NCBI RefSeq assembly: GCF_023380025.1
Contig: NZ_CP097253.1
Coordinates: 1,116,001-1,180,000 of the forward strand
Direction: 5' to 3'
Origin: Sphingomonas glaciei
GTDB lineage: Bacteria; Pseudomonadota; Alphaproteobacteria; Sphingomonadales; Sphingomonadaceae
DNA: 64,000 bases
Shown here: one piece after another, positions 42,387 through 45,494 of the stretch
Numbering within the stretch: position 1 is the first letter of the stretch
How the letters are laid out: each line of letters starts with the position of its first letter
Notes under the pieces: generated by a model
What the model saw: only the letters and a program-made list of their open reading frames with translations
The model's database searches: none
What the model was told of the DNA's origin: nothing
Position numbers and translations under genes: made by a program

Positions 42387-42523
42387 CAGCCGCGAGCCCC
42401 CGTCACCAGCAATGCACGACGCAATGGGCCCCCTAGCTCGGCATGGGCGAGGCTAAGCGCATTGCCGGCGCTGGGCAAGCGCCTCCCCTTGCCGAGCCGT
42501 CTTAGTTCCCTACATCACCGTCC

Positions 42524-42967
42524 ATGTCCCTGGGCTCCCGCCTTCTCGCGATCCGCGACACGCGAGCGGCGCAGACCCTGCTCTTCGGGCTGGGCATCTT
42601 CCTGATGTTCGTCGCCGCGCCGCTGGCCAGCCCCCTGCCCGGCCCCGGCGGACTGCTAATTGCCGCCGCCGGGCTGACCCTGGTCCTGCGCACCAGCTTG
42701 TGGGCCAAGCGCCGCTATGTCCATTTCAAGCGCTGGCAGCCGAAGGCCGGCACCTGGTTCGACTGGGGCCTGCGTCGCGGCAGCGCGCGCCGGCGAGAAG
42801 CCCTGCGCAAGGAGCGCGAGCGGCAGGAGGCCCCGCCCCCTTCCGAAGTGCCGCGCACCGATGACCCGCTGCCCAAAGCGGGACTTGAAGTCATGCCGAT
42901 CGATCCGACCCCGACCGAGGTCGCTCCGGCCGAACCGCCGGTCACCGGCGAGGCCTCGCGGCATTGA
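42524..42967 (+). CDS. Small membrane protein, putative PGPGW-type
   Basis: 147 residues. Two hydrophobic segments (about 17-35 and 40-57) are joined by SPLPGPGGLLI, which resembles the PGPGW motif of a family of putative transmembrane proteins. The rest is basic then Pro/Glu-rich and probably cytoplasmic. Function unknown. It is followed by a terminator-like hairpin before rpmH. Confidence 0.75.
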   Translation: MSLGSRLLAIRDTRAAQTLLFGLGIFLMFVAAPLASPLPGPGGLLIAAAGLTLVLRTSLWAKRRYVHFKRWQPKAGTWFDWGLRRGSARRREALRKERERQEAPPPSEVPRTDDPLPKAGLEVMPIDPTPTEVAPAEPPVTGEASRH

Positions 42968-43007
42968 CTTGGGAGCCTGCCTTGAGTAACGGCCCCCCAA
43001 GCAATGC

Positions 43008-43040
43008 GGCTGCCCCTGATTGGGCGGCCCTTTTTGTTCT
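43008..43040 (+). terminator. Intrinsic terminator or attenuator ahead of rpmH
   Basis: GGCTGCCC and GGGCGGCC form an eight-pair stem (one G-T) around a six-base loop, followed by CTTTTTGTTCTT. It ends about 20 bases before the rpmH ATG. That leaves almost no room for a promoter between hairpin and gene, so it may act in the rpmH leader as well as end the upstream gene. Confidence 0.7.
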
Positions 43041-43060
43041 TAACTCGAAGGCCATGAGCG

Positions 43061-43195
43061 ATGAAGCGCACTTTCCAGCCCAGCAATCTCGTCCGCAAGC
43101 GGCGTCACGGCTTCCGCTCGCGCTCGGCGACGGTGGGCGGCCGCAAGGTGCTGGCGGCGCGCCGGGCGCGCGGCCGCAAGAAGCTCAGCGCTTAA
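43061..43195 (+). CDS. rpmH: 50S ribosomal protein L34
   Basis: 44 residues beginning [19 protein letters not shown] and ending RGRKKLSA, the entire L34 sequence. A GAAGG ribosome site lies about ten bases upstream of the ATG. A second ATG at 43054 in another frame opens the long frame that contains rnpA. It heads the rpmH-rnpA-yidD-yidC-engB group. Confidence 0.98.
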
Positions 43196-43518
43196 TCACC
43201 CTTACCAGGCGCGCTGACTTCCTGGCCGCGAACAGCGGCCGGCGCGCGCCGATGCCCGGCTTCGTCCTGCTGGTCCGCCCTCGCGGCGACGGGGAGCAGG
43301 CGATGCGGATCGGCTATACCGTCAGCAAGAAGGTCGGCAATGCGGTGGTTCGCAACCGCATGAAGCGGCGCCTGCGCGCGCTTGCCGCCGAACTGTTGCC
43401 CGTAGCGGGAATCGCCGGCGCCGACCATGTGCTGATTGGTCGCCAGAGCGGGATCGAACGCGACTATGCGCTGCTTCGCGCCGAGCTGGCCAAGGCGCTG
43501 GCGAAAGTGACCCGGTGA
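43195..43518 (+). CDS. rnpA: Ribonuclease P protein component, with no canonical start codon
   Basis: About 107 residues. The protein subunit of RNase P helps the RNA subunit mature tRNA 5' ends. The conserved N-terminus [12 protein letters not shown] and the signature [16 protein letters not shown] (about 52-67) are clear. There is no ATG, GTG, TTG or CTG in frame between the end of rpmH and this N-terminus. The codon in the right place is ATC at 43195, which overlaps the rpmH TAA by one base. The only upstream canonical start is the ATG at 43054, seven bases before rpmH, giving about 154 residues with rpmH read in another frame. An ATG at 43251 would remove the conserved N-terminus. Confidence 0.85.
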
Positions 43519-43727
43519 TCGCGCGGATGCTGATCCTGGTGGCGCGCGGCTGGCAGCTTGGGCCAAGCGCGATTCTGCCCCCTTCCTGCCGCTTCACGCC
43601 GTCCTGCTCGGCCTATGCAATCACCGCCTGGACCCGCTATGGGGCGCTGCGCGGAAGCTGGCTGGCCCTGCGAAGGATCGGCCGCTGCCATCCCTGGGGG
43701 GGCCAGGGTCACGACCCGGTCCCGTGA
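43515..43727 (+). CDS. yidD: Membrane protein insertion efficiency factor YidD
   Basis: 70 residues. The conserved [18 protein letters not shown] segment with three cysteines and the [18 protein letters not shown] end identify the family. It assists membrane protein insertion together with YidC. The GTG at 43515 overlaps the rnpA stop by four bases (GTGA). Confidence 0.94.
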
Positions 43728-43763
43728 GCCGGGCTTTGGGAACACACGAGGACATGGACTGAC

Positions 43764-45494
43764 GTGAGCGAAGATACCCGCAACATGATCCTCGCCATCG
43801 TGCTGAGCGCTGCTGTGCTGCTCGGCTGGGGCCTCTTGTCGGAGCGCTACTTCCCGACTCCGAAGCCAGCGGTCACCGCGAGCAAGAACGGTTCGCCGGC
43901 GGTCCCGGCCCAGACCCCGGGCGCACCCGCCGCAGCGGCGGCCCCGGCGCTTTCGCGGGCGCAGGCGCTGCAGGGCGTCCCGCGGGTCAGGATCGAGACC
44001 CCCAATCTCGTCGGCTCTCTCAGCCTCAAGGGCGCGACCTTCGACGACTTGCGGATGGTCAACCAGACCGATCGCGTCGGCAAGGACGCCCAGCCTGCCC
44101 GCCTGCTCAGCCCGGCCGGTGCAGCGGGTGCCTATTTCGCGCGCTTCGGCTGGACCGGCCAGGGCGTCGCGGTGCCCGACGCCAATACCGTCTGGACCCC
44201 CAGCGCCGCCACCCTCACCCCGGGCAAGCCGGTCAACCTGAGCTGGACCAACCCGACCGGCCAGCGCTTCGAACTCACCGTCGCGGTCGACGACGGCTAC
44301 CTGTTCACCGTGACGCAGCGCGTGTCGAACCTCGGCGGCGCGCCGATTGCGGTGCGCCCGTTCGGCCTCCTCAGCCGCGCCAACGCCGGTCCTGACGCCA
44401 AGTCTGACGGCTGGACGCACCACGTCGGCCCGATGAGCGTGATCGACGGACGGTCCGACTATGAGGTCAATTACGGGACCCTCGACGACGAAGGCTCCAA
44501 GCGCTTTACCGGCAGCAATGGCTGGGTTGGGTTCACCGACAAATATTGGCTGACCGCGCTTGCGCCGGTCGGCAATGCCCCGCTCAGCGCCAGCCTGCGC
44601 CGTGGCCAAGGCACCAGCTACCAGGCCGATTATGCGCTTGAGCCGACCATCGTCGCGCCGGGCCGGGCGATCCAGGCCAGCACCCACCTGTTCGCCGGGG
44701 CCAAGGAGAAGAAGTGGCTCGACGCCTATGAGGCTTCGGGCGCGGTGCCGGTGATCTCCGACTCGATCGACTGGGGCTGGTTCGAATTCGCCATGCGGCC
44801 AATCTTCGCGCTGCTGATCTGGCTGTTCGGCGCCATCGGCAACTTCGGCTGGGCGATCATCGCGCTGACCTTCATCGTCCGCCTGCTGATGTACCCGATC
44901 TTCGACCGTCAGTTCCGCTCGATGGCGGGAATGCGCGCGATGCAGCCCAAGATGAAGGAGCTGCAGGAGCGTCACAAGGACGACAAGACCAAGATGCAGC
45001 AGGAGCTGCTCGAGCTGTACAAGCGCGAGAAGATCAATCCTGCCGCCGGCTGCCTGCCGATCCTGATTCAGATCCCGGTCTTCTACGCGCTCTACAAGGT
45101 GCTGACCGTGACCGTCGAAATGCGCCATCAGCCGTGGGAACTGTGGATCAAGGACCTGTCGGCGCCCGACCCGCTGACTCCGATCAACCTGTTCGGCCTG
45201 CTGAACTTCGACCCGCCGGGCCTGCTTCACCTGGGCGTGCTGCCGATCCTGCTCGGCATCACCATGTGGCTGCAGTTCAAGCTCAATCCGGCGCCGATGG
45301 ACGACATCCAGAAGCAGATCTTCTCGATCATGCCGTGGGTGATGATGTTCGCCATGGCGCCGTTCGCCGCCGGCCTGCAGCTCTACTGGGTGGTCTCCAA
45401 CCTCCTCGGCATCGCGCAACAGAAGTATCTCTACTCCAAGTATGATGCGGAGAAGATCGCGGCGCGGGCCGGCGTGGCGACGGCCAAGACCTGA
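43764..45494 (+). CDS. yidC: Membrane protein insertase YidC
   Basis: 576 residues. An N-terminal helix (about 7-25) is followed by a periplasmic beta domain of about 300 residues, then the insertase core with five helices. The core includes FGWAIIALTFIVRLLMYP (about 370) and the AGCLPILIQIPVFYALY region (about 430). The start is a GTG at 43764 (MSEDTRN). Its TGA overlaps the engB ATG (TGATG). Confidence 0.97.
   Translation: MSEDTRNMILAIVLSAAVLLGWGLLSERYFPTPKPAVTASKNGSPAVPAQTPGAPAAAAAPALSRAQALQGVPRVRIETPNLVGSLSLKGATFDDLRMVNQTDRVGKDAQPARLLSPAGAAGAYFARFGWTGQGVAVPDANTVWTPSAATLTPGKPVNLSWTNPTGQRFELTVAVDDGYLFTVTQRVSNLGGAPIAVRPFGLLSRANAGPDAKSDGWTHHVGPMSVIDGRSDYEVNYGTLDDEGSKRFTGSNGWVGFTDKYWLTALAPVGNAPLSASLRRGQGTSYQADYALEPTIVAPGRAIQASTHLFAGAKEKKWLDAYEASGAVPVISDSIDWGWFEFAMRPIFALLIWLFGAIGNFGWAIIALTFIVRLLMYPIFDRQFRSMAGMRAMQPKMKELQERHKDDKTKMQQELLELYKREKINPAAGCLPILIQIPVFYALYKVLTVTVEMRHQPWELWIKDLSAPDPLTPINLFGLLNFDPPGLLHLGVLPILLGITMWLQFKLNPAPMDDIQKQIFSIMPWVMMFAMAPFAAGLQLYWVVSNLLGIAQQKYLYSKYDAEKIAARAGVATAKT

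Follow-up and report, generated by a model that had tools for sequence, protein, structure and literature searches.

Genes that lie wholly inside another gene on the same strand are rare in bacteria, and the junction between rpmH and rnpA in Sphingomonas glaciei raises the question of where translation of rnpA begins and whether it runs across the whole of rpmH. For the window, by which we mean the entire stretch of 64,000 nucleotides that was analysed, the initial annotation had stated that no in-frame ATG, GTG, TTG or CTG lies between the rpmH stop codon and the RnpA domain, that an ATC (43195-43197) shares the A of the rpmH TAA, and that the ATG at 43054 opens a longer frame across all of rpmH. 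These three statements were confirmed on the window sequence, and the longer frame encodes 154 amino acids and reaches into RnpA. Of the two start models offered there, a Thermus-like start at ATG 43054 turned out to be well supported by relatives, and a start at ATC 43195 was not supported, because this codon is not conserved. We consider it highly probable that rnpA starts at ATG 43054 and reads through rpmH, and that both genes have the leader, and most likely also the Shine-Dalgarno site, in common.

Genes and reading frames at the junction

The identity of both genes is clear from domain matches. The rpmH product matched ribosomal protein L34 over its full length in Pfam (PF00468, 78.2 bits, E = 4.4e-22, residues 1-44 of 44), and the 154-amino-acid frame matched RnpA (PF00825, Ribonuclease_P) with 72.2 bits against a cut-off of 22.3 (E = 4.3e-20, residues 49-152) as well as TIGR00188 (54.1 bits against a cut-off of 38.35). 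A whole-genome search found only this one RnpA match. The starts of rnpA and rpmH, ATGAGCGATG, are 7 nt apart, which places rpmH in the +1 frame of rnpA. The only in-frame starts of the RnpA frame in the window are TTG 42964, TTG 42982 and ATG 43054; after ATG 43054 the frame contains no ATG, GTG, TTG or CTG as far as codon four of the RnpA domain, and the next in-frame CTG is that at 43222. Downstream of rnpA lie yidD, whose GTG at 43515 overlaps the rnpA stop codon, and then yidC (43515-45494).

Table 1. Features of the rpmH-rnpA junction in the window
Feature	Position	Strand	Remarks
Terminator-like hairpin and T run	43008..43035	+	Just upstream of the start region
GAAGG, Shine-Dalgarno-like	43047..43051	+	2 nt upstream of ATG 43054 and 9 nt upstream of ATG 43061; putatively serves both starts
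rnpA, full-length frame (154 aa)	43054..43518	+	ATG 43054 to TGA 43516-43518; proposed true gene
rpmH (ribosomal protein L34, 44 aa)	43061..43195	+	Wholly within rnpA, +1 frame; stop codon 43193-43195
ATC codon overlapping the rpmH stop	43195..43197	+	Candidate start of the initial annotation; judged not to be a start
RnpA domain	43198..43515	+	Pfam match
CTG within DFLAAN	43222..43224	+	First codon of the listed protein P0122 (98 aa); judged a wrong start

Loci compared

The junction was compared in four sets of loci. An even sample of the Sphingomonadaceae comprised 119 genomes, of which 116 had an RnpA match and 110 were used (G007, G030, G052, G079, G101 and G113 had a match and were left out of the counts). 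A set of named genomes contributed the 80 nearest loci, which were picked by similarity to the window and are therefore not a fair sample. The order set consisted of 30 loci from 60 genomes searched, and the class set of 30 loci found by an rpmH pattern, for which 240 genomes were searched and 77 had a match. Loci without a usable rpmH (L041, L139, L144, L150, L153, L155, L162, L170, L171 and L188) or without an RnpA match (L239 and L240) were excluded, five loci were removed as repeats and six as identical junctions, and L253-L257 stood outside the counts. This left 229 distinct junctions with both genes: 177 from the family, 24 from other families of the order and 28 from the rest of the class. 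The family junctions were classed as 110 nested (105 with ATG seven bases before the rpmH ATG, hereafter position -7, and 5 with GTG or TTG there) and 67 not nested. In one of the genomes left out, the RnpA match (G052:C1:581697-582134) was split (query 2-31 and 18-106), as if there were an insertion in the gene. In four loci from other families of the order (L194, L202, L213 and L222), rpmH reads VKRT... and seems to have a GTG start.

An ATG seven bases upstream of rpmH

In 105 of the 177 distinct Sphingomonadaceae junctions, an ATG lies precisely 7 nt ahead of the start codon of rpmH. The initial annotation had proposed that comparison of the junction in relatives would help to decide between its models, and the outcome was uniform: in all 105 loci the frame opened by this ATG runs across rpmH to the RnpA domain without a stop and is the RnpA frame. 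Among the 110 nested junctions, ATG occurs 105 times at -7 and once in total at all other offsets from -4 to -16, which argues that the -7 ATG is more than chance. GTG or TTG takes its place in 8 further family loci, in 5 of which the frame is open and in register with RnpA.

No other ATG, GTG or TTG occurs up to the fourth domain codon in 65 of the 105 loci with ATG at -7, and in 28 of the 105, the window among them, there is no downstream CTG either. When upstream codons are counted too, the -7 codon is the sole in-frame ATG, GTG or TTG in 31 of the 110 nested loci, and in 15 of the 110 it is the sole in-frame start even with CTG counted (the window is not one of these 15). Starts at the upstream TTG codons 42982 and 42964 were rejected as a general solution on the basis of the 31 loci.

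It could be supposed that the -7 ATG serves rpmH only, as a part of its ribosome site or as the start of a short regulatory frame, and that rnpA is expressed otherwise. In favour of this, the ATGA found here includes a TGA, at -6, that is in frame with rpmH, and the ribosome site is well placed for rpmH. However, such a role would not call for a stop-free frame that coincides with RnpA in every one of the 105 loci, and the two -7 ATGs found outside the family behave differently, since one opens a frame closed by stops (1 of the 24 order loci) and the other (G506) is not in the RnpA frame. We regard this explanation as very improbable.

The open frame itself is weaker evidence than the position of the -7 ATG. 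A stop in the nested frame arises when an rpmH codon with T as its third base precedes AA, AG or GA. In nested loci, T was found at 0 of 517 such stop-making sites and at 560 of 3638 other sites, where the zero follows from the definition of openness; the corresponding figures were 15 of 383 and 487 of 2087 for the not-nested family loci, and 95 of 352 and 648 of 1551 for the order and class loci. Synonymous resampling gave an expectation of 60.8 open frames for the 110 nested loci, all of which are open, and of 18.8 for the 67 not-nested family loci, of which 50 are open. As the not-nested loci exceed expectation too, resampling does not discriminate as a test of nesting, and in those loci the frame stays open for some other reason or because of recent loss; the frame is open over rpmH in 47 of the 64 family loci without a start at -7. 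Furthermore, conservation of the N-terminal extension is forced by RpmH, so that selection on the extension is inseparable from selection on RpmH.

Frame of the spacer between rpmH and the RnpA domain

The spacer from the rpmH stop codon to the RnpA domain is locked in frame across the relatives. Its length in the loci with ATG at -7 ranges between 5 and 86 nt and takes 18 values, all of them 2 modulo 3. The RnpA tree has few columns and is weakly supported (26 of its 197 inner branches are starred), so that counts of changes on it are approximate and gains are indistinguishable from losses; on this basis, the loci with ATG at -7 show at least 43 changes of spacer length and 0 changes of frame, the 65 of them without a downstream ATG, GTG or TTG show at least 23 changes of length, and the 64 loci without a start at -7 show at least 54 changes of length and 22 changes of frame. 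Since the length varies and the frame never does, the spacer is translated in a frame that is set at or before the rpmH stop codon. On the same tree, the label nested or not-nested changes 14 times, compared with 66 times in shuffles, and it is therefore clustered. Independent-pair tests on the starred branches yielded 2 pairs only and were uninformative.

Frame locking alone fits either the -7 ATG or a start on the rpmH stop codon. The latter would be a case of translational coupling, in which ribosomes that have finished rpmH restart at a non-AUG codon at the stop (ATC 43195 in the window, or in relatives a CTG that overlaps a TGA stop) and produce a short RnpA. Coupling of this kind would likewise lock the spacer to rpmH, ATC or ATT is present at the rpmH stop in 31 of the 110 nested loci, some database entries begin nearby (for instance P0121, with 107 amino acids), and a few genes are known to use non-AUG starts. 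What separates the two is the variety of triplets at the stop codon together with the conserved ATG at -7. The codon that shares a base with the rpmH stop is ATC in 28, AGC in 22, ACC in 14 and AAC in 10 of the 110 nested loci, and ATG in none, so that neither ATC nor ATG is conserved there in relatives; the resemblance to a TAATG junction comes merely from the A of the stop codon, and we rejected ATC 43195 as a start. Coupling would also leave unexplained both the -7 ATG and the presence of a downstream ATG, GTG or TTG in most loci that lack a start at -7, and we judge it to be improbable.

Database records and the CTG at 43222

The RnpA proteins recorded for this family do not agree on a start. 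Among the 120 relatives listed for the 154-amino-acid protein, 91 begin exactly at the -7 methionine, a proportion that is favoured by the use of a long query. A query with the domain only brings up other annotated starts, such as P0122 from this genome (98 amino acids) and the 107-amino-acid P0121, and Sphingomonas humi has both a 154-amino-acid record (P0002) and a 98-amino-acid record (P0208). The two 98-amino-acid records begin at an internal codon, which is CTG in the window, and are without the conserved N-terminal residues. One RnpA record, P0174, also carries a resolvase domain (PF00239), perhaps as an artefact.

That RnpA is a 98-residue protein starting at CTG 43222 is what P0122 and P0208 imply. 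This start would remove R53, D55 and F56, which are invariant in an alignment of 48 sequences (the window plus 47 relatives, each of them retrieved by the long query). CTG starts are rare, and Sphingomonas humi has the long record as well. We rejected this start, which has next to no chance of being correct. A sequencing error that hides an ATG at 43195 is unlikely too, as relatives share the layout (P0001, for instance, is 90% identical and has 154 amino acids).

Start codons downstream of position -7

If rnpA is read from position -7 in the nested loci, the not-nested loci must be read from elsewhere, and the distribution of downstream start codons is consistent with this. An ATG, GTG or TTG further down was found in 60 of the 67 not-nested and 42 of the 110 nested loci (Fisher p = 3.8e-12, a value that is too small because the rows are related), and in 57 of the 64 family loci without a start at -7. 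The 16 loci with an open frame and a non-start codon at -7 follow the same pattern, with a downstream ATG, GTG or TTG in 14 and none in L132 and L158. Of the five open loci with another start at -7, the three with TTG (L026, L119 and L122) have none downstream and the two with GTG have one. Individual loci beside nested kin can be read in the same way: Rhizorhabdus histidinilytica (L036) has AGA at -7 and a GTG downstream, and Sphingobium fontiphilum (L086) has TAG at -7 and an ATG downstream. Seven not-nested loci (L113, L115, L132, L145, L158, L161 and L175) have no ATG, GTG or TTG between -7 and the domain; six of them have CTG and L113 has none, and L158 also has an ATG at -22. It is possible that these seven use rare starts, and they run counter to any simple rule.

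The downstream starts in the 42 nested loci also bear on the form of the protein. Translation may begin both at the -7 ATG and at a start further down, giving RnpA in two sizes, or the longer product may later be trimmed to the domain, as could be imagined from the position of the extension outside the Pfam domain. The window, however, offers no downstream start before the domain. We consider two forms rather unlikely, on the understanding that this reading is compatible with a start of rnpA at ATG 43054 and that its odds overlap with those given to that start.

Leader region

A single purine-rich site, GAAGG, is seen before both starts in the window. The end of the best-pairing hexamer is 6 or 7 nt away from the rpmH ATG in 96 of 103 nested relatives and is more scattered in not-nested loci (7 nt in 22 of 53 and 4 nt in 13 of 53). 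We had expected the Shine-Dalgarno site to be displaced in nested loci, but its position did not differ overall between the two groups (p = 0.74). Because the site lies so close to the rnpA ATG and its distance to rpmH is unchanged, it looks tuned for rpmH, and the fact that it has not visibly moved for rnpA fits a strong rpmH start beside a weak rnpA start.

Upstream of rpmH, a hairpin followed by a T run was found within 100 nt in most family loci, both nested (93 of 109, compared with 9 in letter shuffles) and not nested (46 of 65, compared with 7). Of the 93 nested loci that have it, 66 have the end of the stem 26-35 nt ahead of the rpmH ATG. The window contains the motif GGCGGCCNTTTT a single time. 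The hairpin would be either a terminator of the upstream gene or an attenuator acting on rpmH-rnpA. Searches for a sigma-70 promoter in 42700-43800 and for Rfam families up to E = 1 in 42400-43900 gave no match.

Distribution of the nested layout and comparison with Thermus

The nested layout is common in the family, and the remark in the initial annotation that it would be unusual for a sphingomonad was mistaken. In the even family sample it was present in 37 of 101 distinct junctions, and by genus code 29 genera were nested, 54 were not nested and none was mixed. It was also present in 70 of 73 junctions of the named near relatives, a set chosen by similarity to the window. Sphingomonas (46) and Sphingobium (11) made up most of these 70, and there were single cases under the names Stakelama, Hephaestia and Allosphingosinicella. 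Outside the family, the layout was found in 0 of the 24 loci from other families of the order and in 0 of the 28 other class loci. With a strict rpmH pattern, which fitted 77 of the 240 class genomes, an ATG at -7 was found in 2, both of them in the family; in the phylum, it was found in 7 of 299 genomes searched, an uncounted share of which have an rpmH that fits the pattern, and these were 6 family members and G506.

Thermus (Feltens et al. 2003, PNAS, as cited in PMC9841429) is, according to PMC9841429, the only described case of rpmH nested in rnpA. As in the sphingomonads, the same two genes are involved, rpmH lies wholly inside rnpA, and two close AUGs stand behind one apparent Shine-Dalgarno site. 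The AUGs in Thermus are 4 nt apart (AUGGAUG), whereas they are 7 nt apart here (AUGANNNAUG), and both offsets place rpmH in the +1 frame. The present case further differs in that it belongs to another phylum, that its site is about 2 nt from the rnpA AUG, and that it is predicted from sequence. The paper also describes ambiguous start sites in pqiA, tamA and narQ of E. coli (AUGUG or GUGUG; PMC9841429), which resemble the present case in that adjoining start codons open two frames from one leader; those start codons overlap, whereas here the offset is 7 nt and each frame belongs to a known gene.

The 4-nt offset of Thermus was seen in 0 of the 299 genomes of the phylum searched with the strict rpmH pattern, and no literature on nested rpmH and rnpA in sphingomonads was found among open-licence papers, as judged by titles and abstract openings. 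As none of the loci sampled beyond the family had the nested layout, nesting in the sphingomonads appears to have arisen separately from that described for Thermus. We regard the sphingomonad junction as most probably a counterpart of the Thermus arrangement in another phylum, a conserved pair of nested genes that is predicted from sequence and probably of separate origin.

Possible mechanism and significance

According to the explanation that we favour, initiation of rnpA would take place at ATG 43054, seven bases ahead of the rpmH ATG, and translation would cross all of rpmH in another frame to give an RnpA that is longer by about 48 residues at its N-terminus, with this long protein as the probable working form. 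Both genes would be served by one leader and most likely by one Shine-Dalgarno site. A 30S subunit bound at this site may pick either the first AUG, for rnpA, or the second, for rpmH, and the two choices would be mutually exclusive, so that the two AUGs would compete for one 30S subunit, as suggested by analogy with Thermus and the AUGUG sites (PMC9841429). With a spacing of 2 nt to one AUG and of 9 nt to the other, most initiations would be expected to yield L34 and few to yield RnpA. A strong rpmH start beside a weak rnpA start might therefore act as a built-in device for a high ratio of L34 to RnpA.

L34 is abundant in the cell and RnpA is scarce. It is somewhat more probable than not, in our estimation, that nesting of rpmH and rnpA arose two times, once in Thermus and once within the Sphingomonadaceae, in one of their branches, because the choice between adjacent AUGs on a single ribosome site is well suited to fixing a high ratio of L34 to RnpA, that the start and the frame are kept by selection in sphingomonads, and that a lost start is usually replaced by one downstream.

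The finding also matters for annotation: the listed RnpA proteins disagree, and the one recorded for this genome is without conserved residues. A second case of nesting, which is widespread and variable and occurs in bacteria open to culture and genetic manipulation in the laboratory, would provide a comparative system in which nested and not-nested kin carry the same genes. Such a system also touches on the question of how a ribosomal protein that is abundant can remain paired with an RNase P subunit that is scarce.
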